From: Streptomyces sp. NBC_00683
GTDB taxonomy: Bacteria > Actinomycetota > Actinomycetes > Streptomycetales > Streptomycetaceae
DNA: 64,000 bases
Direction: 5' to 3'
NCBI RefSeq assembly: GCF_036226745.1
Contig: NZ_CP109013.1
Span: forward strand, 8,308,001-8,372,000
Part shown: piece by piece, positions 15,152 through 64,000 of the stretch
Position numbering within the stretch: the stretch's first letter is position 1
Layout of the letters: every line of letters starts with the position of its first letter
Made by a program: the position numbers and the translations under genes
Notes under the pieces: generated by a model
What the model was told of the DNA's origin: nothing
Database searches by the model: none
The model's input: only the letters and a program-made list of their open reading frames with translations

Positions 15152-15157
15152 TAGCCT
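15152..15157 (+). promoter_or_regulatory. -10 box (TAGCCT) for the M20 peptidase gene
   Basis: TAGCCT ends 6 nt before the ATG at 15164, and no Shine-Dalgarno sequence is present, so the message is probably leaderless. Confidence 0.45.
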
Positions 15158-15163
15158 TGCGAA

Positions 15164-38842: not shown

Positions 38843-38905
38843 CGGGTGGCTCACTTTCACGGAACTGGCGGGACAGCCAGGGCAGGAGAGGGGTGGGTAG
38901 GCCGG

Positions 38906-40840: not shown

Positions 40841-40982
40841 GGTCTGTCTCTGACCTCTTCGAAGTACGGGGGTGGGGCGGGTGCGGCAGGCGTCGGGCCG
40901 TACGGGCCGGGCCGGCGGGCCGCGGGACGAGGCGGGGGAGCCCCGGTGGGCCGCGTGCGGCAAGGGGCAGCGGGCCCATGGT

Positions 40983-42101
40983 TCAGTGCGCGGACGGTGC
41001 GGGACCGGTGGACTCCCGTACGACCAGGCTCGGGCGTCCGTCGAGGACCGGCGGGGGCACGTCCTCGCCGCACCGGACGAGCAGCTCGCGGGCGGCGGCC
41101 GCACCGACCCGTTGCACCTGCTGGTCCACGGTCGTGAGCCGGGGGTGCAGCCAGCGGCCGAGCGGCAGGTTGTCGTACCCCACCACCGACACGTCTTCGG
41201 GCACCCGGAGCCCGCCGCGCTGGGCCGTACCGATACCGCACACGGCCATGGAGTCGTTGGTGAACACCAGCGCGGTCGGCCGGTCGGGGAGCGCGAGCAG
41301 TTCCTCGGTGACGGCGACGGCCGCCCGCTCCGTGAAATCGGTGTGCCGTACGGCGACGGGCCGCAGCCCCGCTTCGGCGAGGGCGCTCTCGAACGCGGCC
41401 CGGCGCAGCCCGGTGTGCACCAGCTCGGCCGGACCCGCGACGTACGCGAAACGCCGGTGGCCGAGCTCCAGCAGGTGCGCGACCGCCTCACGGACACCGG
41501 CATCCTGCTGCCCGAGGCCGACGCCGGGCACCGGCGACGAGGGATCCGGCGTGCCGAGCAGGACGGCGGGCAGCCCGAGGCCCCGCAGCAGTTGGGGGCG
41601 CGGGTCGTCCGCCCGCGCGTCGGTCAGCACCGCACCGTCGATCCGGCCTTCCGCGACCAGTCGTTCGTACAGCGCGCTCTCCTGGGCCATGTCGGCGACC
41701 AGGTGGAGCAGCAGACCGTAGCCCCGGGGGGCCAGTTCGCCCTCCAGACCGGTGATCAGCTCGCTGAAGTGCGGGTCGGCGCCGAGCACGTCCGTGGGGC
41801 GGCGGACGACGAGCGCGATCGTACGGGTACGGGCCCGGCGCAGCGCGGACGCCGACGCGCTGGGCGACCAGCCCAGTTCGGCGGCCGCGGCCAGAACCCG
41901 GCGGCGGGTCGCCTCCGAGATCCGGCCGGTGCCGTTGACGGCCTGGGACACCGCGGCGGTGGAGACCCCGGCCGCGGCGGCCACAGCCTTGATCGTGGGA
42001 CGGGCCGCTCCCTCGGTTCCCGCGGCACCGCGCCGGGAACCGGGTGCCGCGCCCGTGGGCTGTCCGGCGTCCTCGGGACGCTCCTCGGTACGTACCTTCA
42101 C
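40983..42101 (-). CDS. LacI family transcriptional repressor of the sugar operon
   Basis: This 372-residue repressor has an N-terminal LacI HTH preceded by a 35-residue Gly/Ala-rich extension: TIKAVAAAAGVSTAAVSQAVNGTGRISEATRRRV with hinge ALRRARTRTIALVVRRP. A periplasmic-binding-protein-like sugar domain follows. The GTG start overlaps the permease stop (GTGA at 42098-42101). It sits inside the operon between transporter and hydrolases, so it is produced together with them, giving feedback control. The likely operator is the 16-bp palindrome at 45230. Confidence 0.92.
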   Translation of the reverse strand: MKVRTEERPEDAGQPTGAAPGSRRGAAGTEGAARPTIKAVAAAAGVSTAAVSQAVNGTGRISEATRRRVLAAAAELGWSPSASASALRRARTRTIALVVRRPTDVLGADPHFSELITGLEGELAPRGYGLLLHLVADMAQESALYERLVAEGRIDGAVLTDARADDPRPQLLRGLGLPAVLLGTPDPSSPVPGVGLGQQDAGVREAVAHLLELGHRRFAYVAGPAELVHTGLRRAAFESALAEAGLRPVAVRHTDFTERAAVAVTEELLALPDRPTALVFTNDSMAVCGIGTAQRGGLRVPEDVSVVGYDNLPLGRWLHPRLTTVDQQVQRVGAAAARELLVRCGEDVPPPVLDGRPSLVVRESTGPAPSAH

Positions 42102-42925
42102 ATCTTCACCGCCCCGCTGACGAGAGCCTGCTGCATGCGCTTCTGGAGCAGGGTGTACACCACCCAGACCGGGACCAGGGTCAGTACCGTGCCCGCGGTC
42201 AGGATGCCGTAGTCGGTGCCGGTGAGGGACTTCAGGGTGGGCAGGGCCACCTGAACGGTGCGCTGCTCGGGGTCCGGACCGATGATGACGAGCGAGTACA
42301 GGTACTCGTTCCAGAAGGTCAGGAAGTTGAGCAGGAGGATGGTGGCGATCCCAGGCATGCACATCGGCGTGTACACGTGCCGCAGGACAGCGAAGGTGGA
42401 CGCGCCGTCCAGGCGTGCCGCCTCCTCCATCTCGTGCGGGATCGTCCGCATGAACTGCACCAGGATCACCACCGAGAGCGGCATCGCCGTGGCAGGCAGG
42501 AACAGCACCATGAAGGCGCGGGTGTGGAACAGCCCGGTCGCCGCGGCGAGCAGGAAGGTGGGGAAGAGCGCCGCGAACGTCGGAACGAGGAATCCCAGCG
42601 AGAACACCCGCTCCACGAACGCCCCGAGCCGTCCCTCCGTACGGGCGATGGCGAAGGCCGCAGGAATGGCGAGCCCCAGGGTGAGAGCCAGCGCCAGCAC
42701 CGTGACCAGCACGGAGTTGACGACGGCCGGTCCCAGGTCCGCGGAGGAGAAGGCCTCCCCGAAATTGTGCAGGGAGAACGAGGTCGGCAGGGAGAACGGG
42801 CTCCCGAAGATCTGGTCGTTCGTCTTGAACGCCGAGACCAGCAGGTAGTAGAGGGGGACCACCAGCAGCGCCGCGTACAGCCACGCGAGGACGTGGGCCG
42901 GCAGCCAGGACCTTCCGAACTTCAT
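42098..42925 (-). CDS. Sugar ABC transporter permease (MalG type)
   Basis: This 275-residue inner-membrane protein has six helices and the MalG-type EAA loop EMEEAARLDGASTFAVLRHVYTPM that docks the ATPase. It imports oligosaccharides together with the MalF-type partner and the binding protein. GGAG lies 8 nt before the ATG, and 13 nt separate it from malF. No ATPase gene is in the operon, so it probably uses the general MsiK ATPase, as is usual in Streptomyces. Confidence 0.92.
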   Translation of the reverse strand: MKFGRSWLPAHVLAWLYAALLVVPLYYLLVSAFKTNDQIFGSPFSLPTSFSLHNFGEAFSSADLGPAVVNSVLVTVLALALTLGLAIPAAFAIARTEGRLGAFVERVFSLGFLVPTFAALFPTFLLAAATGLFHTRAFMVLFLPATAMPLSVVILVQFMRTIPHEMEEAARLDGASTFAVLRHVYTPMCMPGIATILLLNFLTFWNEYLYSLVIIGPDPEQRTVQVALPTLKSLTGTDYGILTAGTVLTLVPVWVVYTLLQKRMQQALVSGAVKM

Positions 42926-42938
42926 GGAACCGCTCCGA

Positions 42939-43880
42939 TCAGTAGTTCTGGCGGAAGACGCGACGGATGGTCAGCAGCCCGGCCAGACCGACCAGGAACA
43001 GGACCACACCGACGGTCTGGCTGTATCCCAGGTCGGCCGCGATGAACGCCTTCTGGTACACGAGGAAGGACAACGTTGTCGACGAGCTTCCCGGGCCGCC
43101 CTGGGTGAGCAGCAGCACGTTCTGCGCGGAGCCGAAGAGTGTCCACAGGAACTGAAGCATCGTCACGACACCGACGAAGTCACGGATGACGGGGAAGTGG
43201 ATGCGCCACATGGCACGCCAGTGTCCGGCGCCGTCGAGCTGGGCGGCCTCACCGATCTCGTCCGGCACACTGCCCAGCCGGGCGGCGAACAGCACGGCGG
43301 TGAAACCGATGCCGCTCCACACGTCCAGGACGATCAGGCAGTAGAGGGCGGTGGACGGCGAGGCGAGCCACGCGTCGGCCATCGACCCCAGACCGACCTT
43401 GTCCAGACCGCCGTTGAGCAGGCCGTCAGGCGACAGGACCGCGTAGAACACCATGGCCTTGGCCGGGGTGGAGATCAGGCCGGGAATGAAGAGCAGGTAC
43501 CGCAGGACGCGGTGGCCGGGCGGCTTCTGGGCGACGTAGTACCCCAGCATGTACGCGCACACGATCATCACGGGCAGTGCGACGACGAGCTGGACGGCGG
43601 TGTTGCCCACCGCGTCCCAGAAGACCGGGTCGTCGAGGACGGCGCGCACGTTGCCGAGACCGGCGAAGGAGACCGGCTGGAGCATGCCGGGCCAGTGCAG
43701 GGCGGCGATGACGAAGATGGCGACCAGCGGGCCGACCATGAAGACGAGGTACCAGACCAGCGCCGGTACGGCGAGGACGACCCCGCCCTGCTTGCGGCGG
43801 GAAGTCGTGGCGGGGGACGGCGACGGCGGATCCGGCCGGCGGACCGAGGCGCCGCCCGGGGCGGACGAGAGCAACGTCAT
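42939..43880 (-). CDS. Sugar ABC transporter permease (MalF type)
   Basis: This 313-residue inner-membrane protein has a polar N-terminal stretch of 35 residues, six or seven helices (VLAVPALVWYLVFMVGPLVAIFVIAAL first) and the EAA loop IGEAAQLDGAGHWRAMWRIHFPVI. It pairs with the MalG-type permease directly downstream, and the binding protein lies 32 nt upstream. Confidence 0.92.
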   Translation of the reverse strand: MTLLSSAPGGASVRRPDPPSPSPATTSRRKQGGVVLAVPALVWYLVFMVGPLVAIFVIAALHWPGMLQPVSFAGLGNVRAVLDDPVFWDAVGNTAVQLVVALPVMIVCAYMLGYYVAQKPPGHRVLRYLLFIPGLISTPAKAMVFYAVLSPDGLLNGGLDKVGLGSMADAWLASPSTALYCLIVLDVWSGIGFTAVLFAARLGSVPDEIGEAAQLDGAGHWRAMWRIHFPVIRDFVGVVTMLQFLWTLFGSAQNVLLLTQGGPGSSSTTLSFLVYQKAFIAADLGYSQTVGVVLFLVGLAGLLTIRRVFRQNY

Positions 43881-43912
43881 GAGGGGACTCGCAGAGGGCT
43901 CGGGCGCGCGGA

Positions 43913-45205
43913 TCAGGCCGTGCGGTAGGCGGATTCCAGGGCGGAGCGCACGGCGGCCGCGCTCGTCCCCCTGGTGAATGCGGTGCTGGTCGCCGTGATC
44001 AGTGGCTGGGTGGCCGTCGGAGGTACGTACAGGTCGGGCAGGAGGACCTGGCCGACCCGGTCACCGAGCTGCTGGGCCTTGGCCACCAGTGGGAAGTCCT
44101 TGCTGACCGTGTCCGTCACCAGAGCCATGTCCCGCCCGCTCTCGGTGATGAAGCGCGAGACCACCTCGGGCCGGTACATGAAGCGCAGGAACTTCTCGAC
44201 CGAGGACAGCTTCTTGACGCCGTTGGGGCTGATCCAGAAGCCGATGAGGGTGTACGAGCGCAGGATCGTCGGCTTGCTGTGCGAGGCGCCGGGGGCGAGC
44301 GGCCAGCCGCCGACCTCGGTGTGCCCCGCCGGCTTCGGGGCGACCTTCGCGAGTGCCGAGGACATCGCGGACTGGATGGCCGCCGCCTCGGTGTTGTACT
44401 GCGTGGTCATCGTGTCGGAGGTCAGCCCCTGCGCCTTGTCGGCGAAGACACCGGCGTCGCGCAGCTGGACGAAGTAGTCGATGCCCTCGCGGGCACCCCT
44501 GCTGCCGCTGAAGTCGCCGGTCGTGTAGACCTTCCTGGCCTCGTCGGGCGTGAGGAAGGTCTGGATGATCTGGGCCAGCAGCTTCTGACCGGTCCAGTCG
44601 TTGCCGCCGACGGTGACCGGGGCTATGCCCTTGGCGCGCAGCCTGCGCGCGGCGCCGATCAGCTGGTCCCCGGTGGTGGGGACGGAGCCGACGCCGGCCC
44701 GGTCCAGCAGGGCGGTGTTGTAGGCGACGGGCCAGTTGGTGGCGAAGTAGGGGAAGGCACGCAGCCTGCCCTTGCTGTCGGTCCACTCCTCCAGGGCGGC
44801 GGGCAGGACGCGCTCCCGCAGCCCCCAGTCGTCGAGATACCCCTTCACGTCGACGGTGGCGCCGACATCGGTCCAGGCCAGCGTCTTGTCGTAGAGATTG
44901 ACCATGACCACGTCCGGCTCCTTGCGGGCCAGCCGGGAGGTCTCGTACACCTGGGGAAGATCGTCGCCGTTGACGAGGTTCTTGACCCGGAGGCCGGGGT
45001 TCTCGTCCTCGAAGGTCTTTACGACGGCCTTGTAGGTGGGGGAGCCCGGTGCGGTGGTGCCGAGCTGGGTGTGCACGAGCAGGGTGCCGGGGTCGGAATC
45101 GGCCGAGGTGAGTGTGGAACAGCCGGACAGAGCGGGAATTGCGGTAGCGGCGGCGAGGCCGGAGCCTGCTGCGAGGAAACCGCGCCGACTCAGGGATGAG
45201 CGCAC
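43913..45205 (-). CDS. Sugar ABC transporter substrate-binding lipoprotein
   Basis: This 430-residue family 1 binding protein delivers oligosaccharides to the MalF/MalG permeases. The signal SRRGFLAAGSGLAAATAIPALSGC is a Tat lipoprotein signal, with the lipobox LSGC (Cys 29) to be acylated. The mature part, LLVHTQLGTTAPGSPTYKAVVKTFEDENPGLRV, is typical of the cluster. The start is a GTG with GGAG about 10 nt upstream. It is the first gene of the operon, with the palindrome 45230-45245 just before it. The specific sugar is unknown. Confidence 0.92.
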   Translation of the reverse strand: MRSSLSRRGFLAAGSGLAAATAIPALSGCSTLTSADSDPGTLLVHTQLGTTAPGSPTYKAVVKTFEDENPGLRVKNLVNGDDLPQVYETSRLARKEPDVVMVNLYDKTLAWTDVGATVDVKGYLDDWGLRERVLPAALEEWTDSKGRLRAFPYFATNWPVAYNTALLDRAGVGSVPTTGDQLIGAARRLRAKGIAPVTVGGNDWTGQKLLAQIIQTFLTPDEARKVYTTGDFSGSRGAREGIDYFVQLRDAGVFADKAQGLTSDTMTTQYNTEAAAIQSAMSSALAKVAPKPAGHTEVGGWPLAPGASHSKPTILRSYTLIGFWISPNGVKKLSSVEKFLRFMYRPEVVSRFITESGRDMALVTDTVSKDFPLVAKAQQLGDRVGQVLLPDLYVPPTATQPLITATSTAFTRGTSAAAVRSALESAYRTA

Positions 45206-47007: not shown

Positions 47008-47625
47008 ATGGCTGACATGGAATTGTTCCGGGAGGCGGTCACCGCGTGGGCGGCCGGTGGCCCCGGCGACCCCGCGCGGGAACTCGCCACGGGACTGGCC
47101 GTCCGGGCAGTCGTCCTGCTCGAAGGGCCGAGCGACGTCGCAGCGGTCAGCGCGCTGGCCGCGAGCCGCGGCCGGGACCTGGAGGCCGAAGGCGTCTGCG
47201 TACTGTCGATGGGCGGCGCGATGAGCGTCGGGCGCTTCGCACACATCCTCGGGCCACCTGGCCTGGGCCTCCGCCTCACCGGGCTGTGCGACGAGGCGGA
47301 GACCCGCTACTACACGCGCGGCTTGGAGCGGGCCGGGGCGGCCCAGCAGGAATTCTTCGTCTGCGCGGCTGATCTGGAGGACGAACTCATCCGCGCACTG
47401 GGTGTGGCACGAGTGGAGGAACTCGTCCAGGCGGAGGGCGACTTGCGCGCCCTGCAGACCTTCCGGCACCAGCCCGCACAGCAGGGCCGAACCCCGCAGC
47501 AGCAGTTCCGGCGCTTCCTCGGCACGAAGAAGGGGCGCAAGATCCGCTACGGCCACGTCCTCGTCGAGGCCCTTGAGCCCGACCGTGTACCCGCCCCGCT
47601 CGACGACCTGCTCACCAGCCTCTGA
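47008..47625 (+). CDS. OLD-type TOPRIM domain protein without an ATPase
   Basis: This 205-residue protein consists of an OLD-family TOPRIM nuclease-like domain: VVLLEGPSDVAAVSALAASRGR (glutamate motif), MGGAMSVGRFAHILGP, LTGLCDEAE (acidic motif) and VCAADLEDELIRALG. It lacks the ABC-type ATPase that precedes TOPRIM in full-length OLD nucleases. Such stand-alone TOPRIM proteins are common in actinobacteria, with unknown role, perhaps metal-dependent nucleotidyl hydrolysis. The ATG has GGAG 9 nt upstream. A hairpin lies 31 nt past the stop. Confidence 0.85.
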   Translation: MADMELFREAVTAWAAGGPGDPARELATGLAVRAVVLLEGPSDVAAVSALAASRGRDLEAEGVCVLSMGGAMSVGRFAHILGPPGLGLRLTGLCDEAETRYYTRGLERAGAAQQEFFVCAADLEDELIRALGVARVEELVQAEGDLRALQTFRHQPAQQGRTPQQQFRRFLGTKKGRKIRYGHVLVEALEPDRVPAPLDDLLTSL

Positions 47626-52406: not shown

Positions 52407-52726
52407 CACGGTTTCGTCCACCCGCTCATTCTGCGGGCAAGGATCACGCCCAGCGAGGGTTGAACGAGCGGGTGTCGTTCGTCGCGCCGGCGAGCACTTC
52501 CTGCCACGGCGCCGGGGCTGCCAGGGAGCAGACGCTGCCAGGGCGTCGTGCCCCGGCACCTGGCCGCACCCCACGTCATGAGCGCCCCGGCCCTTCCTAT
52601 GCGCCTCGCCCGCCGCCTATGCGTCCTGCCGCCCGAGACATGGCACCGCCCGGCCGGAGGCGGTTCAACTGAACCCAGAGAACCCGGAACCGGTCGATTG
52701 CACATCACCCACACGGGAGGCGTCCG
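52407..52726. other. Intergenic region at the clavulanate-cluster edge
   Basis: These 320 nt lie between the divergent oxidoreductase gene and gcaS. They hold a direct repeat CCTATGCG at 52596-52603 and 52616-52623 (20 bp apart) and the gcaS ribosome site GGGAGG at 52711. I see no gene and no clear -35/-10 pair. Confidence 0.55.
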
Positions 52727-54016
52727 ATGACAACACCTCTGGCCGACTACGCGCAGTTCGCCGGAAAGCGGATCGCGATCGTCGAGCACATGCAGAACCA
52801 CCCCTTCGTCCTGGGTCTGAAGCAGGCTCAGGAACACGGCCTCGAAGTGTGGCTGCTGACGGGTGACCGGTCCTGGTACACCCATGGACACGACTGGGAC
52901 ACCCACCCGCTGTCCATCGTGGACCGGGTGATCGACGTCGACACCACCGACCTCGACGCCGTTCTGGCCGCGACCACCGGCGAGGACGGTGCGCCCCTGG
53001 TGGACGGCCTCACCTCGTTCTCCGACTACCACACCGAGCTTGCGGCGCACGCCGCGCGCCGCCTCGGCCTGCCGGGGCCCGACCCGGACGCCGTGCGCAC
53101 CGCCAACATCAAGGACCACCTGCGGATCGCGCTCGGCGACCAGCCGTTCAACATCCCCCATGTGCTGGTCAGCCATCGGGGCCAGCTCGACGAGGCGGCC
53201 CGCCGGCTCGGCTTCCCGATGATCGCCAAGCCCCCGGCCGAAGCGATCAGTTACGGGGTGCGCAGGGTCGACGACCTCGCCGGGCTCATCGAGGCGTGGG
53301 AGGAGCTCTCCACCGTCCGGCACAGCCTCCGCGGCCAGCCCCGCTCCGGTGACGTCCTGCTGGAGCAGTACGTCGAGGGCGAGGAGGTCAGCGTCGAGAC
53401 GATGACCGTGGACGGGCACACCCACGTCTTCGGCGTCACCTCCAAGGACCTCTTCGGCGACCCCGCGTACATCGAGTGCGGGCACACCTTTCCCGTACCG
53501 CTCCCCGACGACGAGCGTGACGAGCTGTACAGGGTGGTCCGCACGACCCTGGAGATGATCGGTTACCGGCACGGTCCCTGCCACACCGAGGTCCGGCGCA
53601 CCGAGTCCGGCTGGCGGATCATCGAGGCCAACCCGCGCACCCCGTCCAGCTGCATGACCATGCTGGTGACCGACGTCACCGGCCGCAGCCCGATCCTGGA
53701 CGCCTGGCTGCTCACCATCGGCGTCACCCCGCCGATCGAGCCTGTCGTCCACCGCGGCGGTGCCGCGGTCCGCATGATCTACCCCACCCGGCGCGGGACC
53801 CTCGCACGCATCGACGGGCTGGATGCCGCGGCGGCCGTGGCGGACGTCCAGGTGCTGCTGCACGTCGAGAAGGGCGACCACCTGCTCCAGCGCATGGACA
53901 ACTCCTCGTGCGTCGGTTTCACCTACTGCAACGGCCCCGACCGGGTGGCCGCCCAGGAACTCGCGGACAAGGCCGCCGCTCTGCTGGACTTCGTCGTCGA
54001 GGAAGAGCTTCGGTGA
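52727..54016 (+). CDS. gcaS: N-glycyl-clavaminic acid synthetase (ATP-grasp ligase)
   Basis: This 429-residue ATP-grasp enzyme corresponds to Orf17/GcaS of clavulanic-acid clusters, which joins glycine to clavaminic acid. Typical elements are FPMIAKPPAEAISYGVRRVDD (ATP lysine), VLLEQYVEGEEVSVETMTVDG and the metal-binding ECGHTFP and WRIIEANPRTPSSCM. GGGAGG precedes the ATG. It is the first gene of a four-gene run (gcaS-orf16-oppA2-orf14), and its stop overlaps the next start (GTGA at 54013). Assignment rests on family plus the colinear gene order through claR. Confidence 0.88.
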   Translation: MTTPLADYAQFAGKRIAIVEHMQNHPFVLGLKQAQEHGLEVWLLTGDRSWYTHGHDWDTHPLSIVDRVIDVDTTDLDAVLAATTGEDGAPLVDGLTSFSDYHTELAAHAARRLGLPGPDPDAVRTANIKDHLRIALGDQPFNIPHVLVSHRGQLDEAARRLGFPMIAKPPAEAISYGVRRVDDLAGLIEAWEELSTVRHSLRGQPRSGDVLLEQYVEGEEVSVETMTVDGHTHVFGVTSKDLFGDPAYIECGHTFPVPLPDDERDELYRVVRTTLEMIGYRHGPCHTEVRRTESGWRIIEANPRTPSSCMTMLVTDVTGRSPILDAWLLTIGVTPPIEPVVHRGGAAVRMIYPTRRGTLARIDGLDAAAAVADVQVLLHVEKGDHLLQRMDNSSCVGFTYCNGPDRVAAQELADKAAALLDFVVEEELR

Positions 54017-55191
54017 GCCCGTATACCGAACCCGTCGCACCGGCGGGCCCGGACGGCGTACGCGCGGTCGCGAACGCCGCAGGGCTGGAGGCGGCGGGCT
54101 GGAACTCCCTGCTGGGCGCGGAGGACTTCTTCCAGACCCCCCGGTGGCTCACCGTGCAGGAGCACAACTCCGGTACGGCGATGGACTTCCTCGTGCGCGA
54201 CCGGGGCGGCATCCCGGTCGCCGGGCTGGTGACCGCATGGGCCGACACCTCCGTCGCCTGGCTCCTCGCCCGGCCGGACGCCATGCTGAAGCGCGCCCTG
54301 GAGCAGGACGTTCCGGAGGCCGTCGGCGTGCTTCGCGACGTCGCCGCGGGTGACCCGGACACCCTGCTGCCCTCTTTGGTGTGCGGAGGACGACACCTGG
54401 GCCGCACCCGGACGCTCGCTTCCGCCGACGCCACGGAGCAGGACCTCGCAGCCCTGCTGGAGAAGGCCGAGACGATGGCGGCGGACCGGAACGCGGCCAC
54501 CGTCTGCTTCCCGCACGTCGACGTACGCGACACGCCTCTGGTCGCCCTGCTGGAGCGCCGCGGCTACAGCAACCACCCCTCCGACCACTACGCCTGGCTG
54601 GACATCCCGCCGGGCGGCTTCGAGCAGTTCGTCGAGGAGATGAGCGCCCACCGCCGCCGCCGGGTGCGCCTGGAACGCCGGGCGCTCACCGAGGCAGGCG
54701 TCGAGGTGAACGTCGAGCCGCTGACCCAGGCGCTCTGCCCCCGCCTCGGACAGCTCGACGCCAACCTCCTGCGCAAGTACGGGAATCCGGCCAGCGACGA
54801 GGGCTCTGCCCGCATGATCGGACGGATCGCCGAGATCATGGGCGACGACGTCCTGGTGTCCGTGGCGCGCCAGCGCGGCAGCATCATCGGCTTCGGCATG
54901 GTGCTGCGGTCCCGGGCCCGCGGCGAGGAGCAGTGGTACGGACACCGCGCCGGGTTCGACTACGAGGCCCAGGGCAAGCTGCCGCTCTACTACGACGTCC
55001 TGTACTACCAGGTGCTGGACGCCGCCGCCAAGGAGGGCGCCACCGTCCTGCACGCCGGGATCGGCAGCGTCAAGGCGAAGCTCGCCCGGGGCTGCCAGGC
55101 CAGCGAGCAGCGCTCCTACCTGCTGCCGATACCCCGCACCGAAGGCACCGCGGGCGCGCCCGCCGACGACCGGGAGACGACCACACGATGA
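54013..55191 (+). CDS. orf16: Clavulanate-cluster Orf16, FemAB/GNAT-like protein
   Basis: This 392-residue protein has a FemAB/GNAT-like (COG3146-type) fold: WNSLLGAEDFFQTPRWLTVQEHNSG at the start, SDHYAWLDIPPGGFEQFVEEMSAHRRRRVRLERRALTEAGVEV in the middle, and a GNAT-like end with WYGHRAGFDYEAQGKLPLYYDVLYYQVLD. It occupies the position of orf16 in the S. clavuligerus cluster, whose function is unresolved. A role in aminoacyl or acyl transfer to a clavam intermediate would fit the fold. The GTG start overlaps gcaS, and its stop overlaps the oppA2 start. Confidence 0.82.
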   Translation: MSPYTEPVAPAGPDGVRAVANAAGLEAAGWNSLLGAEDFFQTPRWLTVQEHNSGTAMDFLVRDRGGIPVAGLVTAWADTSVAWLLARPDAMLKRALEQDVPEAVGVLRDVAAGDPDTLLPSLVCGGRHLGRTRTLASADATEQDLAALLEKAETMAADRNAATVCFPHVDVRDTPLVALLERRGYSNHPSDHYAWLDIPPGGFEQFVEEMSAHRRRRVRLERRALTEAGVEVNVEPLTQALCPRLGQLDANLLRKYGNPASDEGSARMIGRIAEIMGDDVLVSVARQRGSIIGFGMVLRSRARGEEQWYGHRAGFDYEAQGKLPLYYDVLYYQVLDAAAKEGATVLHAGIGSVKAKLARGCQASEQRSYLLPIPRTEGTAGAPADDRETTTR

Positions 55192-56894
55192 GCGCCGACA
55201 CCGACCTCCAGGAAGGCGGCGGCTGGAACGCCGCCGTCGGAGCGAGCGTCAGCCCCTCCGGCCGTCGCGGGGGCACCCTGCGGCTGGTGTCCTCCGCCGA
55301 CGTCGACTCCCTCGACCCCGCGCGCACCTATTACGTCTGGGTATGGCTGCTGCAACGCCTGCTCAACCGCACCCTGATGGCCTACCCCACCGACCCGGGG
55401 CCGGCAGGCCTCGTCCCCGTACCCGACCTCGCCGAGGCGCCGGGGGTACCGAGCGACGGCAACCGGACCTGGACCTACCGGCTCCGCGAAGGCGTCCGCT
55501 TCGACGACGGCACCCCGGTGACCTCGGCCGACGTACGCTATGCCGTCCAGCGGATCTTCGCCCAGGACGTGCTCCCCGGCGGCCCGACCTACCTGGTGCC
55601 GCTCCTGGACGACCCGGACCGCCCGTACGCCGGGCCCTACCGCGACGACGCCGAGGACGGCCTGCCCGCCGTGCTCACCCCCGACCCGCGCACGATCGTC
55701 TTCCGGCTGCGCACCCCGTTCTCCGACTTCGACCATCTGATGGCCCAGCCCTGCGTCTCCCCGGTGCCCCGGCAGGCCGACACCGGCGCCCTCTACGGCG
55801 ACGACCCGCGCTGCACCGGTCCCTACCGTGTGGCCGGTCACCGGCCGGGCAGCAGACTCCTGCTGGAACGCAACCCCCACTGGGACCGGACCACCGACCC
55901 GGTGCGGCCCGCACTCCCGGACCGGGTGGACGTGACCATCGGCCTCGACCCCGACGAGATGGACGAGCGGCTGACGGCGGGGGAGTTCGACATCAACCTG
56001 GAGGGCCGCGGCCTCCAGCACGCCGCCCAGCACCGCCTGGCCGATGACCCCGTGCTGCGCTCACGCACCGACAACCCGAAAACGAGCTTCCTGCACTTCG
56101 TCTCGCTCCAGCCCCACATACCGCCCTTCGACAACGTGCACGTACGCCGGGCCGTGCACTACGCGGCCGACAAGATCCTGCTCCAGGAAGCACGCGGCGG
56201 GCCGGTCACCGGAGGCGATCTGACCACCGCGCTCTTCCCTCCGAGGCTCGCCGCCCACCAGCCGCTGGACCGTTACCCGACCGGCCCGGATCTGCGCGGC
56301 GACCTCGACGCCGCCCGTGCCGAACTCCGGGCCGCCGGACTGCCCGACGGTTTCGACGCGGTCATCGGCACCCAGCGCGGAAAGTTCCGGCTGGTCGCCG
56401 ACGCGGTCGTGGAGTCCGTCGCCCGGGTCGGCATCCGGCTGACCGTCAAGGAACTCGACGTCGCCACCTACTTCAGCCAGGGCGCGGGTTCACCGGAGAC
56501 CATCCGCAAGCACGGGCTCGGCCTGATCGTCACCGACTGGGGCGCCGACTTCCCCACCGAGTACGGCTTCCTGGCACCTCTGGTGGACGGCCGGCTGATC
56601 CGTCCCGGCGGCGGCAACTGGAACATCGCCGAACTCGACGACCCGAAGATCAACGAACTGATCGACACGGGGCTGCACACCGCCGACCCCGCCTCCCGCG
56701 CCGAACTGTGGCGCGAGGTGGAGCGCCGGGTCATGGACCATGCGGTCATCCTCCCGCTGGTCCACGACAAGACCCTGCACTACCGGGGCCCCCGCGCCAC
56801 CAACGTCTATGTGCACCCCGCCTTCGGCCTGTACGACATCCAGGCCATGGGCGTCACCGATACCCGCACCGACCGGGAGACCGACACCGTATGA
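55188..56894 (+). CDS. oppA2: OppA2-type family 5 peptide-binding protein of the clavulanate cluster
   Basis: This 568-residue protein is an extracytoplasmic-type family 5 (oligopeptide) binding protein: GGTLRLVSSADVDSLDPARTYY at the start, GVRFDDGTPVTSADVRYAVQRIFAQD, CTGPYRVAGHRPGSRLLLERNPHW and the long C-terminal lobe. Such OppA proteins are needed for late clavulanate formation without acting as ordinary transport receptors. No typical signal peptide or lipobox is visible after the ATG at 55188, which overlaps the orf16 stop (ATGA), so it may stay in the cytoplasm. Fits position orf15/oppA2. Confidence 0.87.
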   Translation: MSADTDLQEGGGWNAAVGASVSPSGRRGGTLRLVSSADVDSLDPARTYYVWVWLLQRLLNRTLMAYPTDPGPAGLVPVPDLAEAPGVPSDGNRTWTYRLREGVRFDDGTPVTSADVRYAVQRIFAQDVLPGGPTYLVPLLDDPDRPYAGPYRDDAEDGLPAVLTPDPRTIVFRLRTPFSDFDHLMAQPCVSPVPRQADTGALYGDDPRCTGPYRVAGHRPGSRLLLERNPHWDRTTDPVRPALPDRVDVTIGLDPDEMDERLTAGEFDINLEGRGLQHAAQHRLADDPVLRSRTDNPKTSFLHFVSLQPHIPPFDNVHVRRAVHYAADKILLQEARGGPVTGGDLTTALFPPRLAAHQPLDRYPTGPDLRGDLDAARAELRAAGLPDGFDAVIGTQRGKFRLVADAVVESVARVGIRLTVKELDVATYFSQGAGSPETIRKHGLGLIVTDWGADFPTEYGFLAPLVDGRLIRPGGGNWNIAELDDPKINELIDTGLHTADPASRAELWREVERRVMDHAVILPLVHDKTLHYRGPRATNVYVHPAFGLYDIQAMGVTDTRTDRETDTV

Positions 56895-57922
56895 ACAACG
56901 CAGCAGCGGATCTCCGCTTCGTCCCGCTGGACGCCGGTGACACGGCCACGCTCGACGCCTGGGTCCGGCTGACCACGGACAGCGCCGAGGACGTCCCGCT
57001 GTCCGCCGCACCGCCCTGCGCGGCGGACCTGACCGGGTCGGTGCGCTTCGCACCGCCGGACACCACCCTGGCCGGCGAGGTCGCCCTCCTCGGCGGCCAG
57101 GCCGTCGGCGCGCTGCGCCTCGTGCTCCCGGACGGGGCGCCCGTCGCCGTCGTCGACCAGCTGCTGACCGCACCGAAGGAGCGCCGCCAGGGGATCGGGA
57201 CCGCCCTGTTCCGGCGGGCCCGTGCCCTGGCCGAACAGCACGGCCGAACGCTCCTGGTCGCCGATCTGCTCCAGGCGCTGCACGGCGGGCCGCCCCGGGA
57301 CGAGGGCCCCGCCGTGTTCGCGGCGGCGCTGGGCGCCACCCCGTCCGACGGCCCGGAGGGCGTCCACCAGTGGCTCGACCTGGACGCGCACGACCCGCTG
57401 GCCGACGGCATCCCCGAGGTCCCGGCCGGCTACCGGATCCAGCGGTGGGGGACCGTCACACCCGACGCGTTCGCGATCGCCGTGTCCGAACTCGGCCGGT
57501 CCCTCGGCGAGGCGGGCCCGGACACCTGGGACCGGGGGCCCGAGGCGATCCGCACCAGTCATGTGCGGCGCTTCGAGCGCATGCGGGTGGGCCGCGGGCG
57601 GCGCGCCTACCACGTGGGCGCCGTCCACGAGGCGACAGGCGAACTGGCCGGCTTCACCAGCGTCTCCAAGACCACGGGCAACCCGGAGCACGCCCTCCAG
57701 GGCATGACGGTGGTGGCCTCCGCCCACCGGGGCCACCACCTGGGTCTGCTGCTCAAGCTCGCCAACCTCGCCCATGTACGGGAGTACGAGCCCCGGGTAC
57801 GGCTGATCGAGACGGCCAACGCCGACGACAACCATCCGATGATCGCCCTCAACGAGGCCATGGGTTTCATCCCTCAGGAACGATGGGTCTCCTGGGAGGC
57901 GCCGGCCGCCCCGGCCGGCTGA
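56891..57922 (+). CDS. orf14: Clavulanate-cluster Orf14, tandem GNAT acetyltransferase
   Basis: This 343-residue protein has two GNAT domains. The first (1-150) carries LLTAPKERRQGIGTALFRRARALAEQHG, and the second (170-343) VSKTTGNPEHALQGMTVVASAHRGHHLGLLLKLANLAHVREYE with [16 protein letters not shown]. Orf14 of S. clavuligerus is likewise a double GNAT protein that binds acetyl-CoA; its acceptor is unclear. The ATG overlaps the oppA2 stop (ATGA at 56891). The last 49 nt overlap the 3' end of orf13 on the other strand. Confidence 0.87.
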   Translation: MNNAAADLRFVPLDAGDTATLDAWVRLTTDSAEDVPLSAAPPCAADLTGSVRFAPPDTTLAGEVALLGGQAVGALRLVLPDGAPVAVVDQLLTAPKERRQGIGTALFRRARALAEQHGRTLLVADLLQALHGGPPRDEGPAVFAAALGATPSDGPEGVHQWLDLDAHDPLADGIPEVPAGYRIQRWGTVTPDAFAIAVSELGRSLGEAGPDTWDRGPEAIRTSHVRRFERMRVGRGRRAYHVGAVHEATGELAGFTSVSKTTGNPEHALQGMTVVASAHRGHHLGLLLKLANLAHVREYEPRVRLIETANADDNHPMIALNEAMGFIPQERWVSWEAPAAPAG

Positions 57923-58863
57923 CCGTCCGCCGGCTGCCCGCCGCCCCCCTCGGGGACGCGGGGGGCAGCCGCAGCGCCCGTACGCTCGCGCAGGAAGCGC
58001 GGCAGCCAGCCCGTTCCGAGCAACACCCCGGCGACCACGGCCACTCCGCCGGCCACCGCCCATCCGGTGGGCCGCTCGTGCAGCGCAAGCCAGGCACCCG
58101 CCATGCCGACCACCGGCACCAGCATCGAGAACGGCGCCACCACACCGGCCGGGTAGCGCTTGAGCAGCGCCGTCCAGATCCCGGATCCCACGACGCTGCC
58201 CAGCACCGCGATGTAGACGAGGGCGACCAGGCCAGGCCAGCCGTCGGGGCCGAACGCCGACCCCAAGGCCCGCCATCCCGTGCCGGGCCCCTCCATCACG
58301 GCCGACAGCGCCAGCAGCGGCAGCGGCGGGATCACCGCCATCCACAAAGCGAAACGCAAGGGGTACCGGGGCTTCGCCCGGCGGCTCGCCAGATTGCCGA
58401 CCGCCCAGCCGAGCGCCGCGAGCACGGTCAGCACCAGCGGCAGCAGCGGCGCCGTCCGCGCCCGGTCCACCGCGATCACGGCCATCCCCAGCACCGCGAG
58501 ACCGATGCCGGCCAGCTGCCGCCCGGAGACCCGCTCGCGCAGCAGCAGCGCCCCCAGCAGTACGGTGAACGGTGCCGACGCCTGCACCACCACGGACGCC
58601 AGACCCGACGGCATTCCCTGCTCGATGGCGAGGAACAGCAGCCCGAACTGGGCGACGCCGAAGCCCAGTCCGTACCCGAGCAGCCAGCGCAGCGGCACCC
58701 CGGGACGCGGCACGAACAGGACCACGGGCACGGCCAGCACCAGATAGCGCAGCGCTGCCAGGAAGAACGGCGGGAAGTGGTCGAGGCCGACCCGTACCGC
58801 AAGGAAGTTCAGTCCCCAGAGCACGGCCACCAGCACGGCCAGCGAGCGGTCCCGGGGGGTCAC
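57874..58863 (-). CDS. orf13: Clavulanate-cluster Orf13, EamA/DMT family transporter
   Basis: This 329-residue inner-membrane protein has ten hydrophobic helices in two EamA halves (first half [34 protein letters not shown], second half from about residue 140). The C-terminal 45 residues are a polar Gly/Ala tail. Such DMT carriers export small metabolites, and Orf13 may export clavulanic acid or move an intermediate. The GTG start overlaps the orf12 stop (GTGA at 58860-58863). Its 3' end runs 49 nt into orf14. Confidence 0.87.
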
Positions 58864-60164
58864 CGGGAGGTACCGGAGAGCAGGCCGGATTCGATGACGC
58901 GGCCGCCCATGCCCCGCAGGAACTGCCCGTCGCCGATGAGCTTCTGGTCGTCGGCACACTGCTGGAGCACGACCGTGTACCGGACGCCGCCGGTGTCCTC
59001 CAGCAGCCAGCAGAACATCATCACCCCGGGGCACGAACCGCCCTTGAACACCGCGCGGGGCCAGCGGTCCGAGTCGATCGGGACTCCTGGGTACGCCGTC
59101 AGGATGTCATCGACGATCCCGCTCGCGTCCCGTATCCCGTCCTCCACCAGTGCGTCCAGGACCCGTGCCACGTCCCAGGCGCTCATGTGCCAGTCCAGCC
59201 CCAACCGGTGCACGGCAGGCCCGAGATCGGAACCGCGCACGGTCATCGGGCCGGCGATCCGCTCCAGCAGTCGCCTGCGGCCCGCCTCGCCGGAGCCGAC
59301 CCACTCGGCCCGCAGCTCCGGTGTGCCCCAGCCGATCTCGAAGACCTCATGGCTCGTCAGGAACGGCCGCAGCAACGACGGATCGCTGTGCGCGGCGTCC
59401 CGCACGGCCCGCTCCACCGCGTCCCGGCCCAGCAGGTCCTGAATCAGGTCGGCGGCGGTGTTGTCGCTCATCGCGATCATCTTGTACGCCGTCTCGCGCA
59501 CCGACACCCGGGAGCCGTCCGGCAGCTCCTGCATGTCACCGGTGGGCAGGCTGCGCAGGGCGGGGGAGACCGTCACCTCGTCGTCCCACCGCACGGTGCC
59601 GGCGGCCACCGCCTTGGCCAGTGCCCGCATCAGATACAGCTTGTACGAGGAGCCGTTGGGCATCGGCCGGTCCGCGTCCTTGGCGTACAGGGTCTCGGTC
59701 ACCCCGCCGGCCACCCGGGTCACCAGCGCCGACCAGGTCACCCCTGGTTGCTCCAGTGCCCGCGCCAGGTCGCCCCACGCGGACACCGGCGGTGTCACCA
59801 CCTCCGGGCCCAGATGCAGGACACGGATCAGCCCCGTGGAGTCGAGCGTCAGCGACAGAGTGGAGCGGACCCCCGGCGGACCTTCCAGGGTCACCCACGA
59901 CTTGTGGGCCACGGGCTGATAGTCGACGACCGTGAACGGGCCCATGTCGCGCCACTGTTCGAGCGTCGCGGCGAAGCCCTGCGGATGCCGCGCCAGGAAC
60001 ACCGGGACGAAGCTCTCGGACAGGTCCTCGTCCCGGGGCGCCCCAGGGGCGGTGAGCAGCTCCACCGCCCAGCGGCTGCGGCGTCCGAGCGGGGTGTCGT
60101 CCCCGTCGAGCGCCGCCTGCGCATGGGGGCGTACGGAGCCGTCGGAACCGGGCAGATCGATCAT
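58860..60164 (-). CDS. orf12: Clavulanate-cluster Orf12, beta-lactamase-like protein
   Basis: This 434-residue protein has an N-terminal steroid-isomerase-like domain (about 30-130) and a C-terminal class A beta-lactamase-fold domain. The expected boxes are present: SxxK as SSYK (S172-K175), SDN as SDN near S233, and KTG as KGG in FKGGSCPG. Orf12 of S. clavuligerus has weak esterase activity and is needed for clavulanate formation. The ATG at 60164 has AGGAG 5 nt upstream (another ATG directly before it). It lies 35 nt after fd and overlaps orf13. Confidence 0.9.
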
Positions 60165-60199
60165 CATCGCTCCTCGACGGCCGTTGCCGACCGGTGGTG

Positions 60200-60412
60200 T
60201 CAGTCCTCGGTGACTGTGATGGCCGTGCAGGGGCAGAGTTCGGCGCACAGCCGGACCGTCTCGTGCAGTTCGGGCTGTGGCTCGGCCACCAGCAGGACCA
60301 CGGTGCCGGTGTCCGGATCCTGGTCGAAGACCTGCGGTTCCGTCGCCGCGCAGCGGCCCATCGCACAGCAGGCGTCCGTGTCCACGGCCACGGTCAGCCG
60401 ACCGGCGCTCAC
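60200..60412 (-). CDS. fd: [3Fe-4S] ferredoxin partner of the cluster P450
   Basis: This 70-residue ferredoxin has the spaced cysteines of P450-associated [3Fe-4S] types: [18 protein letters not shown] and AELCPCTAI. It should pass electrons to the cytochrome P450 encoded immediately upstream. Its GTG start overlaps the cyp stop (GTGA at 60409-60412), which supports 1:1 co-translation. It matches orf11/fd of clavulanate clusters. Confidence 0.92.
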
Positions 60413-61641
60413 CAGGTCACCGGCAGCGCGCCGAGCCCGTAACTGGACACCTCGTGCCTGAAGTCCAGTTCGTCGAACGGGACGGCGAGCCGGGCGCCGG
60501 GCATCCAGCGCAGCACGGCGGCCAGCATCTCCTCCAGCTCCACCTTGGCCAGCCACTGGCCGAGGCACTGGTGGATGCCGTGGCCGAAGGCCAGGTGGCG
60601 GCGGGCGTCCCGGTGCGGGTCCAGGGTGTCGGGGTCGGGGAAGAGCGACTCGTCGCGGTTGCCGGCCGACAGGGACACGACCACGCCCTCGCCCGCCCGG
60701 ATCGTCACGTCGCCGAGTTCCACGTCCTCCAGCGCGGCGCGGGCGAGGCCGTTCTGCACGATGGAGTGGTACCGCAGCAGTTCCTCGACCGCCTTCGGCA
60801 GCAGCTCGGGGTCCTTGGCCAGCGCCTCGGCCAGGCCCTGGTCGGTGACCAGGCTCAGCAGGCCGAGACTCGCCTGGCTGGTCGTCGTACCGTGCCCGGC
60901 GACCAGCAGCAGCCGGCACATCGGGACCATCTCCTCGACGGTCAGTCTGCCCTTGCGCACCTGGTCGACGACGAGCCGGCTCAGCAGGTCCTCGCCCGGC
61001 TCGGGCATCCGCATGCGCTCCTCGACCACGTCGCGCAGCAGGCCGTCCAGCTCGTCGCGGGCGGCGGCGACCTGCTCCGGCCGGTACCCGCGGTCTATGA
61101 GAATTCCGGCGCGGTTCTCGATCAGTTCGCGCTGCTCGTCGGAGACACCGAAGAGCAGCGCGATCACACGGGAGGGGACGGGGATCGTCAGCCCGCGCAC
61201 CAGGTCCACCGGGCGCTCGCCCCCGACCAGTTCGCCGAGCATGCCGTCCAGGTGCTCCCGCAGCACGGGCCGCATCGCCTCGGCCCTGCCGTGCAGGAAG
61301 TCACGGGTGAGCATGGACCGCAGCCTCGTGTGGTCGGGGTCGTCCATGCGGATGAACGAAGCGGTGTGCGGCTTGTCCCGCACCAGGACGGACGTGGTGG
61401 TCATCATCGGGAAGCCGGGGGCGCTGGTCACCGCGGTGAACCTGCGGTCCGCGAGAACCGCGCGGACGTGCGGATGGGCCGTCACCAGCCACACCTGGCT
61501 GCCGTCCCACATCGTGATGCGGCTGGCGGCGGGGCCGGACCTCAGGAGGGCGAGCGGAGGCGGCGGATCGATCGGGGAGACGCGCTCCATCGGGTAGGAC
61601 GGCGCGGCCGTCACCTTCGGGGATGCTGCGTCCTGCGTCAT
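60409..61641 (-). CDS. cyp: Cytochrome P450 of the clavulanate cluster
   Basis: This 410-residue bacterial class I P450 has the I-helix AGHGTT (248-253), the K-helix ExxR at 287-290 (EELLR) and the haem loop [10 protein letters not shown] with the cysteine ligand C359. It corresponds to orf10/cyp, a late-step oxidase thought to act between N-glycyl-clavaminic acid and clavaldehyde; the exact reaction is not certain. The ATG at 61641 has AGGTGG about 6 nt upstream. It heads a four-gene run cyp-fd-orf12-orf13 with short or overlapping joints and diverges from cad. Confidence 0.92.
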
Positions 61642-61764
61642 GGGTCCCACCTATCGCTGCACGGGCATGCCGACATGAAGTAGCGGCCCCATCCTCACCG
61701 CCCGCCCCGCGACCTCCCCTACGGGGCGGACCGACCCGCATAGCCAGCCACGAACGCACATAAC

Positions 61765-61784
61765 AACGGCCCCCGGAGGCCGTT
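61765..61784. promoter_or_regulatory. Inverted repeat in the cyp/cad divergent promoter region
   Basis: AACGGCC (61765-61771) and GGCCGTT (61778-61784) form a perfect 7-bp inverted repeat with a 6-nt centre, about midway between the cyp and cad starts. It could be a regulator-binding site, for example for ClaR, which controls late clavulanate genes. Confidence 0.45.
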
Positions 61785-61886
61785 CACCGGGCGTCGGCCC
61801 ACTGGTACCGTCGGCGCGCCGCACCGTCGGACGCCCCTTTCGGCCGGATTGCCGGTCCGGCCCACCACCCCGAGAACGAGGACCAC

Positions 61887-62630
61887 ATGAGTTCATCGCT
61901 ACAGGGACAAGTCGCACTCGTCACAGGTGCCAGCTCGGGAATCGGCCGGGCCACCGCACGCGCCCTCGCCGCAGCCGGAGCCTCGGTCGCTCTCGCCGCC
62001 CGCCGCGTCGACCGCCTCGAAGCGCTGCGCGGCGAACTGGAGGCGGAAGGCGCCGTGGTCCAGGTGCTCGACCTGGACATCACCGACGAGCAGGCCGTGG
62101 CCGCCGCCGTACGCTCCACCGTCGACACGCTCGGCCGACTCGACATCCTGGTGAACAACGCCGGGCTGATGCTGCTGGGACCGGTGGAGAACGCCGACAC
62201 CACCGACTGGGTCCGGATGATGGACACCAACGTCATGGGCCTGATGTACATGACGCACGCGGCCCTCCCGGAACTGATCAGGAACCAGGGCACAGTCGTC
62301 CAGATCTCGTCCATCGCCGCCCGCGTCGTCGGACGCGGCAGTGCCGTCTACAACGCCAGCAAGTTCGCCGTCAACGGCTTCAGCGAGGGGCTGCGCCAGG
62401 AGGTCACCGAGCGCGGAGTACGCGTGGTGGTCATCGAGCCGGGCACCGTGGAGACCGAACTGCGCGACCACATCACGCACGCCCCCTCCAAGGCGGCGAT
62501 CGCCGAACGAGTGGCCAAAATACGACAGTTGCAGAGCGAGGACATAGCCGACGCGGTCCTGTACGCCGTCACCGCGCCCCCGCACGCCACCGTCAACGAG
62601 ATCTTCATTCGCCCCACCGACCAGGCCTGA
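61887..62630 (+). CDS. cad: Clavulanic acid dehydrogenase (clavaldehyde reductase, SDR)
   Basis: This 247-residue classical SDR performs the last step, NADPH-dependent reduction of clavaldehyde to clavulanic acid. It has TGASSGIG (13-20), NNAG, the active-site Ser in VVQISSIAARV and the catalytic YNASK, and its ending VNEIFIRPTDQA closely resembles S. clavuligerus Cad, which is also 247 residues. GAGGA lies 5 nt before the ATG. It is divergent from cyp and lies 168 nt upstream of claR, the order described for S. clavuligerus. Confidence 0.93.
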   Translation: MSSSLQGQVALVTGASSGIGRATARALAAAGASVALAARRVDRLEALRGELEAEGAVVQVLDLDITDEQAVAAAVRSTVDTLGRLDILVNNAGLMLLGPVENADTTDWVRMMDTNVMGLMYMTHAALPELIRNQGTVVQISSIAARVVGRGSAVYNASKFAVNGFSEGLRQEVTERGVRVVVIEPGTVETELRDHITHAPSKAAIAERVAKIRQLQSEDIADAVLYAVTAPPHATVNEIFIRPTDQA

Positions 62631-62643
62631 ACCACGCTCCTCC

Positions 62644-62674
62644 CGGCGGGCGCCGCACTGCGCGGTGCCCGCCG
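62644..62674 (+). terminator. Hairpin between cad and claR
   Basis: CGGCGGGC (62644-62651) and GCCCGCCG (62667-62674) pair over 8 bp, with further inner pairing of CCGC with GCGG. It may end part of the cad transcript, which would fit separate and joint cad/claR messages. Confidence 0.5.
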
Positions 62675-62798
62675 CCGTGCTGTCCGGGGCCGCTTGCGGT
62701 GAGGGGAGCGAGAGGAGAGAACGCCTGCCTAACGTGAGCCGCAACAGGCCGTCACAGGTGAAGAAGAGGCGTCATCCATAACCGTAAGGAAGCCGTCC

Positions 62799-64000
62799 GT
62801 GCCTTCTGCGATACACGTGCCCTCCGTTCCCGACCGGTTGACGCGGTTGCCCCTCTCGCGTTCGGATCTGCGGCTGCTGGACGCGATCGGGCAGTGCGGT
62901 GACCTCCCCGAAGCCGCCCGCAGGGCGGGGCTGAGAGCGGCAGCCGCCCAGCGCCGGCTCGACCGGCTGGACCAGGCCACCGGCCTGGGACTGACGCTGC
63001 GCGGCGCGCGTACCGCACGGCTGAGCCCGGACGGCGCCCGCGTGCTCGTAGCCGGCCGGCGGTTCTTCCGCCAGGTCGACCAGGCCGTACAGACCGAGAT
63101 CTACGGGCGCGGCAGCGAGGCGCTGAACGCACCCCGCATCCTGAACATCGCCACCGCCGAACCGCTCATGGAGGACCTGGTCGAGGACGCGGCCGACACG
63201 CTGGGCATCCTCCTCTCCGTCAGCCACGACACACCGCACCAGGTGCTCCGCCAGCTCGCCGGGTACCGGGTGGACGCCGCGCACACCTGGGGCCTGAACG
63301 CCCTCTCCGACGCGGTCGACCGCACCGTGCGCACGTACGAAGTCCTGGACGACCCGCTCTGGGTGACGCTGCCCCTCGGACACCCGCTGGCGGGCCGTGA
63401 CACGGTCTCCCTCGCCGATCTGCGGGACGACAACTGGGTGTCCGAGGCCGGGCCCCAGGCCGAGGTCCTGGTGAGCCGCGTCTACCAACTGGCGGGTCTC
63501 ACCCCGCCCGCCCGCATCCAGGTCACCGGGGCGTCGGTGGCCCGGGGGATGCTGCGGCGCGGAGACGCCATCGGCCTCGGCTCCCCGGCCTGCCCCGCCG
63601 TGTTCGCCCCCTCGCTGGTCCGACGCTCGCTGGTCGAGCGGCCCCGGCGGGCCGCCGGACTCCTGGTCGATCCCACCGTCGTCCCCGGCGCCCTCGCCCA
63701 GCAGCTGGCCGCGCTGCTCACCGCCCGCTGCCTGAGCCGGTTCACCCGGCACCACGGGGACATGCTGGGCGATCCGTGGTGGGCCGAATGGCTACGCGGG
63801 CAGCGAGCGGGGCTGGAGCGGCGCACCGAAGCCGCACGCAGCCTCCAGGCCCCGCCGGCGCTGCCCGACGAGTCGATCCAGGTCGATGTGGAGGACCTCC
63901 ATCTGCTGCGCGCGGTGTCCGCCCACGGCAGCATCAACCGTGCCGCGACCGTTCTGTCCATCAGCCAGTCGGCTCTCACCCGTCGTATCCACCGACTCGA
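62799..64000 (+). CDS. claR: ClaR pathway regulator, two HTH domains (3' truncated by window)
   Basis: The open frame runs from a GTG (AAGGA 8 nt upstream) to the window end, giving 400 residues. It has a LysR-like HTH at the N-terminus (LSRSDLRLLDAIGQCGDLPEAARRAGL), a substrate-binding-like middle and a second LysR-type HTH near the end (LLRAVSAHGSINRAATVLSISQSALTRRIHRLE). Two HTH regions, one at each end, are characteristic of ClaR, the activator of late clavulanate genes. It follows cad in the same direction. Its last residues lie outside the window. Confidence 0.88.
   Translation, partial: MPSAIHVPSVPDRLTRLPLSRSDLRLLDAIGQCGDLPEAARRAGLRAAAAQRRLDRLDQATGLGLTLRGARTARLSPDGARVLVAGRRFFRQVDQAVQTEIYGRGSEALNAPRILNIATAEPLMEDLVEDAADTLGILLSVSHDTPHQVLRQLAGYRVDAAHTWGLNALSDAVDRTVRTYEVLDDPLWVTLPLGHPLAGRDTVSLADLRDDNWVSEAGPQAEVLVSRVYQLAGLTPPARIQVTGASVARGMLRRGDAIGLGSPACPAVFAPSLVRRSLVERPRRAAGLLVDPTVVPGALAQQLAALLTARCLSRFTRHHGDMLGDPWWAEWLRGQRAGLERRTEAARSLQAPPALPDESIQVDVEDLHLLRAVSAHGSINRAATVLSISQSALTRRIHRL

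Follow-up and report, generated by a model that had tools for sequence, protein, structure and literature searches.

A clavulanic acid-like cluster cut by the window edge

The window, a 64,000-base stretch of Streptomyces sp. NBC_00683 (bases 8308001-8372000 of one 8,519,659-base contig), ends inside a set of clavulanic acid (CA) genes. The initial annotation had read ten consecutive genes there as gcaS-orf16-oppA2-orf14-orf13-orf12-fd-cyp-cad-claR, in that order, and had taken them for the late half of a clavulanate cluster. Frames, Pfam domains and matches to solved structures bear out the genes and their order, and late genes they are; they are not, however, half a cluster, since they belong to a 29-kb unit that the window edge interrupts and that is present in full on the contig. 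The cluster is real and complete and its kind is already known. Judged from sequence, it is very probably (about 0.85) the published Streptomyces pratensis-type CA-like cluster, complete and intact.

The frames of all ten late genes are without internal stops, and Pfam domains agree with all ten names. On the plus strand, gcaS (52727..54016) encodes a 429-residue ATP-grasp ligase, an N-glycyl-clavaminate synthetase homologue (ATP-grasp_4, LAL_C2; 84% identical to the S. jumonjinensis copy). It is followed on the same strand by an orf16 homologue (54013..55191), FemAB/GNAT-like and 392 residues long (FemAB_like; 71% to S. jumonjinensis), by oppA2 (55188..56894), whose product is an oligopeptide-binding protein of 568 residues (SBP_bac_5; 81% to S. 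jumonjinensis), and by orf14 (56891..57922), a double GNAT protein of 343 residues with two Acetyltransf_1 stretches. The minus strand carries orf13 (57874..58863), an EamA-type exporter of 329 residues with two EamA stretches; orf12, or cpe (58860..60167), whose 435 residues combine ORF_12_N with Beta-lactamase2 and hold SxxK (GSSYK), SDN and KGG motifs; the 63-residue ferredoxin gene fd (60200..60391; Fer4_13); and cyp (60409..61641), a cytochrome P450 of 410 residues (p450) in which a ten-residue stretch looks, by eye, like the haem motif. Back on the plus strand, cad or car (61887..62630), a clavaldehyde dehydrogenase homologue, has 247 residues, a C-terminus of RPTDQA and a YxxxK kept in alignment. 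The LysR-type regulator gene claR (62817..64265, plus strand, with a GTG start at 62817 or 62799) runs 265 bases beyond the window and has two HTH_1 stretches. Cad, Orf12, ClaR and Orf14 are the four proteins that the initial annotation had singled out as diagnostic.

Three late proteins were compared with solved structures, and for each the top match, by a wide margin, was a CA-pathway protein: 2jah for Cad (E 2.9e-106), 2xep, ORF12, for Orf12 (E 1.3e-166) and 2wpw, ORF14, for Orf14 (E 7.8e-130). We take these structures to be of S. clavuligerus origin; the table lists molecule names only. Over the whole cluster, a CA-pathway protein was the best match for all 8 proteins compared. None of the ten proteins (nine in the window plus ClaR) passed an NCBIfam curated cut-off among the matches listed, which were the best 25 of 232 for Cad and the best 25 of 42 for ClaR. 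A megablast of 11.3 kb of the region against a plasmid collection hit 5 records, with only short P450, SDR or unannotated matches that each cover 1-2% of the query.

The early genes were predicted to lie just right of the window, and oppA1, oat2, ceaS2, bls2, pah2 and cas2 can all be read there in the same contig. An absence of ceaS2, bls2 and cas2 within about 15 kb had been named in advance as an observation that would speak against the annotation, and all three are there; cas2 straddles the 15-kb mark, and the set ends 15.9 kb past the edge. Next to claR lies oppA1 (64318-66012, minus strand), and between it and oat2 sit a nocE-like gene (66264-70286, plus strand; 1340 residues, with a Golvesin_C match and a GDSL lipase match below the Pfam cut-off), a small frame (70345-70635), a SARP activator gene (70692-71480, minus strand; 262 residues) and a gene for a metallo-beta-lactamase (MBL)-fold protein, blaB1/orf11 (72136-73146, minus strand; 336 residues, with an RR-type signal seen by eye). 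A PADLOC scan of the nocE-like protein matched no family. The minus-strand oat2 (73247-74425) and the plus-strand ceaS2 (74639-76354), bls2 (76357-77886), pah2 (77941-78891) and cas2 (78888-79862) each have a CA-pathway enzyme as best solved relative, and Cas2 scores 568 bits against the NCBIfam clavaminate synthase cut-off of 450. The last gene of the cluster, which follows cas2, encodes a pcbR-like penicillin-binding protein (PBP; MecA_N/transpeptidase, 80134-81723, plus strand). The names nocE, blaB1/orf11 and pcbR were assigned from published clusters by position and domain.

In the established pathway, CeaS2, Bls2, Cas2 and Pah2 couple glyceraldehyde-3-phosphate to arginine, form the beta-lactam ring and lead to (deoxy)guanidinoproclavaminate and later clavam intermediates. 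The late and regulatory set is made up of ClaR, the SARP, OppA1 and OppA2, GcaS, Orf12 to Orf16, Cyp with Fd, and Cad, and the PBP and the exporter probably serve producer self-protection.

The cluster has the layout of the S. pratensis type

The CA core gene set from ceaS2 to gcaS, as proposed in PMC6856088, is complete in this genome. It stands in two blocks with the MBL and SARP genes between them, and nocE and pcbR are present. This layout agrees with the strains that PMC9146315 groups as a third block, in which blaB1 and ccaR lie between two gene blocks, and with the description in PMC6856088 of an S. pratensis form, common to many organisms, that has pcbR, orf11 and nocE and is without cephamycin genes; by this layout, its accessory genes and the KGG motif of its Cpe we assign it to the S. 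pratensis type. The likeness to S. pratensis (flavogriseus) ATCC 33331 extends to the two blocks (oppA1 to gcaS and oat2 to cas2), the intervening blaB1 and ccaR, nocE and pcbR, and the lack of a cephamycin cluster; it is a likeness to published descriptions. Unlike our genome, in which no carbapenam synthetase was found, ATCC 33331 has an MM 4550-like carbapenem cluster (PMC12482188). The same source counts 21 organisms with this cluster type, 12 of them also with an MM 4550-like cluster.

The CA clusters of S. clavuligerus and S. jumonjinensis have all core genes from ceaS2 to gcaS in common with ours, and 17 of the 18 genes compared are 59-88% identical in protein to S. jumonjinensis. They differ in that here the early operon is inverted and set apart, LAT is absent, Cpe has KGG instead of KAG, and the SARP is only 43% identical to the S. 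jumonjinensis copy. The type of Streptomyces sp. M41 and S. albiflavescens is also a CA-like set with nocE-like, MBL, SARP and PBP genes, but its order is supercluster-like, its Cpe has KAG and its SARP falls in the CcaR clade.

Among relatives, the identical 20-gene order was found in all four with an unbroken contig (S. papulosa NRRL B-16504, S. clavifer JCM 5059 and two genomes that we denote G086 and G265); in S. silvae and Streptomyces sp. SM10 the order agrees, each cluster being split over two contigs. A scan of named genomes, a list without S. clavuligerus, gave 35 CeaS2 loci among 80 stretches matching a pattern. Four of them (SM10, S. clavifer, S. papulosa and S. silvae, the last ending early at a contig end) have the window's order within 10 kb of CeaS2; in the others the order is that of S. 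jumonjinensis/M41, of S. fulvorobeus or of Kibdelosporangium, or the locus is a clavam cluster in which no late CA set comes into view. Cpe was present at E < 1e-100 in 12 of the 34 CeaS2-locus genomes, out of 35, that were searched whole, and at E <= 1e-60 in 12 of 392 evenly drawn Streptomyces genomes, this one included. Four of the loci (L030-L033), of clavam type, have distant homologues of oppA, orf14, orf16 and gcaS, together with a SARP that is 48-50% identical to the one described here.

A different chromosomal site

Homology to the four relatives defines a collinear block of 29.1 kb, which starts at 52584-52595, ends at 81702-81727 and is found in one to three pieces; 52584..64000 is its in-window part. 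No flank is shared between this genome and the four relatives compared. The flank on the gcaS side is common to G027, G086 and G265; S. clavifer has 156 bases in common with G265 alone. In G265 a core stretch stops at 860263 and resumes at 900293, and the counterparts of these ends in our genome are at 1193816 and 1194527. Because they map so close together, those 40 kb, the block included, are missing at that place here; 3.6 kb of them (864768-868384) were found at 3.99 Mb. About 130 kb separate the end of the block here from that of the contig.

Synonymous divergence (dS) from G265 was lower in the cluster than in the core, with medians of 0.313 for 19 cluster genes (fd being too short) and 0.463 for core genes (Mann-Whitney p 4e-5; against each of three core regions separately, p 2e-5, 0.024 and 2e-4). 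The core set consisted of 54 of the 70 core genes called in the three regions, matched at 60% length and 50% identity. The low dS fits a transfer after the hosts had split, and codon bias could contribute to it. Taken together, the different site, the sharp edges and the low synonymous divergence, which are new here, suggest horizontal movement; it could have been a gain in this genome, a gain in the relative or a move within a genome. No transposase or integrase was named among the 10 flank proteins scanned at the edges, 4 of which had no Pfam match. Left of the block, window positions 47008-47625 encode a 205-residue protein with an OLD-like TOPRIM domain.

No beta-lactam partner cluster was detected

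Among the 18 genomes with Cpe, LAT, the cephamycin entry enzyme, exceeds its curated cut-off in 6. It adjoins the CA-like cluster in S. jumonjinensis (G011) only; in the other five it is on a separate contig or at a distance of more than 1.7 Mb. In our genome no LAT, the sole cephamycin marker used, exceeds the cut-off anywhere, and so no cephamycin genes were found next to the cluster. A Bls2 query (E 1e-5) matched Bls2 alone here and gave further, weaker matches in G265, G086, G105 and G003. In G086 a 459-residue protein, which by eye lies between radical-SAM-like and AMP-ligase-like frames and has a near copy (91%) in G105, was taken for a carbapenam synthetase. With this putative synthetase as query, the best match here and in the other four S. 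pratensis-type genomes was Bls2 (31-32%; in our genome, at 31%, there was no other), and such a protein is thus present in 2 of 7 genomes of the type. By these single markers neither a cephamycin nor a carbapenem partner is detected, though partial clusters might be present.

What the cluster might make

Clavulanate, a beta-lactamase inhibitor in clinical use, is made in nature by three known producers (PMC12482188), and in all of them the CA cluster adjoins cephamycin genes (PMC6856088). From S. pratensis and 10 related isolates no clavulanate was detected (PMC12482188). In S. pratensis, according to the same source, ceaS2 and cas2 were transcribed and no cpe transcript was detected, and the late genes cyp, cpe, orf13, orf14 and oppA2 are reported silent. 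Deletion of ceaS-bls removed a beta-lactamase-inhibitory activity, together with features predicted to be deoxyguanidinoproclavaminate and guanidinoproclavaminate; such predicted features in liquid chromatography-mass spectrometry are described for S. pratensis and JAC18. In three JAC isolates ceaS-bls deletion alone left activity, which the authors credit to the carbapenem cluster. By analogy with these relatives, mainly the early half of our cluster would be active in culture, and its products would be monocyclic beta-lactam inhibitors instead of clavulanate.

Two considerations temper this picture. The published functional data stem from other strains, and the late genes, like the rest, show a low ratio of nonsynonymous to synonymous divergence (dN/dS), so that the late half does not look decayed; the full late pathway, even to clavulanate, could still run under some condition. 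By the Nei-Gojobori method, dN/dS for 20 genes against 6 relatives was 0.05-0.35 (119 of 120 cells, one partial match being left out). Against G265 the median was 0.145 for 9 late genes and 0.122 for 5 early genes, with no detectable difference (p 0.19), and 0.131 for the cluster, compared with 0.183, 0.086 and 0.134 for the three core regions. These values, like those of core regions, and 20 genes without a broken frame make it very improbable that the cluster is a dying one, silent and partly defective, despite the silence (PMC12482188) and the failed complementation (PMC6478378) reported for the type.

The initial annotation had credited the strain with the capacity for late clavulanate steps. 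The set of late homologues is indeed full, the SxxK, SDN and YxxxK motifs are retained and the late genes are constrained, all of which would be expected of a working CA cluster in a clavulanate-making strain. The S. pratensis-type layout, the KGG of Cpe and the accessory genes point the other way, as does the absence of detected clavulanate from published members. Moreover, Cpe of S. flavogriseus fails to complement an S. clavuligerus cpe mutant (PMC6478378), and LAT, the marker of the cephamycin genes that adjoin the cluster in known producers, is absent here. Since the late genes of this type are reported silent and its Cpe does not complement, late-gene homologues are no proof of late clavulanate steps, and we consider it improbable that this strain makes clavulanate.

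Cpe itself might point to another outcome. Its motif is described as KAG in producers and KGG in non-producers (PMC6478378); ours is KGG. The 18 Cpe-bearing clusters, some of them near-copies of each other, comprise 10 with KGG, in three layouts, and 8 with KAG. We rejected KAG as a mark of cephamycin genomes, as 3 of these 8 clusters are in genomes without LAT over the cut-off (G010, G018 and G241); it therefore goes with cluster layout and relatedness, not with the presence of a cephamycin partner. Few of the shared enzymes have diverged as far as Cpe (59% to S. jumonjinensis and 63% to M41), yet Cpe is constrained, with a dN/dS of 0.20-0.27. The published idea of a defective Cpe in non-producers is thus not favored, and a different role or partner for Cpe would fit better than a defect. 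Tentatively, the late enzymes may have diverged toward a different clavam, with the KGG-type Cpe adapted to that end product, a possibility also raised in PMC12482188 and compatible with assignment to the S. pratensis type; still, no product has been seen, and the S. pratensis late genes are reported silent.

A ThnU-like SARP published as ccaR

In published accounts the SARP of this cluster type is called ccaR and read as a preserved CcaR (PMC9146315, PMC12482188). Our comparisons do not place it there. Between this genome and M41, the remaining 17 genes in the comparison, from which fd and nocE were left out, are 59-88% identical, and the SARP is 43% identical both to that of M41 and to that of the S. 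jumonjinensis cluster, which are 75% identical to each other. Among the best 120 of 1238 matches in a protein search, the type itself was followed by three SARPs (66-68%) and then by a S. cattleya SARP (60-61%). The latter is on pSCAT, near frames that by eye, in a record without annotation, look ThnN-like, radical-SAM and MBL; going by gene order, we take it to be ThnU.

A tree of 45 rows joins the S. pratensis-type SARPs to the S. cattleya SARP (99/95) and sets CcaR apart as a separate clade with a long stem. The SARP thus does not fall with the S. jumonjinensis supercluster SARP, which is CcaR by position. Holding the S. pratensis-type SARPs and CcaR together was weakly rejected (approximately unbiased test, p 0.039), the groups having been named after the first tree was seen and the S. 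cattleya row flagged as long. If CcaR has merely changed fast on its stem, the idea of a swap falls. ThnU is described as activating cephamycin genes although it lies outside that cluster (PMC3992018). In the excerpts surveyed on ThnU and these clusters, a survey that did not take in the 2013 S. flavogriseus paper, we found no mention of a likeness between this SARP and ThnU.

The S. cattleya thienamycin cluster resembles ours in its SARP, in an MBL frame before the SARP and in a nocE-like frame nearby. This last frame (positions 13787-16492 of locus L183, S. cattleya pSCAT 917727-936506) is 33% identical over 996 residues; its nearness to the ThnU-type SARP means that the association of SARP, MBL and nocE is found again outside clavam clusters. 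The two clusters are otherwise unlike: in the 18.8 kb looked at, only the SARP, the MBL protein (40%) and nocE were matched among 20 cluster proteins. The MBL gene is closer to those of other Streptomyces CA-type clusters (57-61%) than to the S. cattleya copy.

The SARP mismatch might be a cause of the silent late genes. It is possible, though doubtful, that the S. pratensis-type cluster is a horizontally mobile, self-contained unit under a ThnU-type SARP from a carbapenem-like setting, in which a regulator swap, and not decay, silences the late operons in the laboratory, the signal that they answer to being one that no CcaR-type activator provides and the product perhaps a clavam other than clavulanate. 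The mismatch turns late-gene silence into the question of which activator the late promoters answer to. Two further candidates were rejected. A TTA codon in the SARP gene does not mark the type: of 7 S. pratensis-type SARPs 2 carry it, and its place differs between the two. Nor was a recent loan of the SARP from an MM 4550-like cluster in the same genome supported: G086 and G105 have one SARP match each (E 1e-40), in the CA-like cluster.

What is fresh here is modest: the different site, the lack of a detected partner, the constrained late genes and the ThnU-like SARP. The genome adds to the silent type a member on a single contig, at a different chromosomal site and with no detected beta-lactam partner.

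Other genes of the window and genome

On the minus strand at window positions 36503-45076 lies a gene run whose products look, by eye, like glycoside hydrolases, a LacI-type regulator, two sugar ABC permeases and a binding protein. Outside the window, at G000:C1:7329760-7508459, frames of 1,612 to 11,319 residues gave SDR/KR-like matches to Cad and probably belong to a very large modular polyketide synthase locus.

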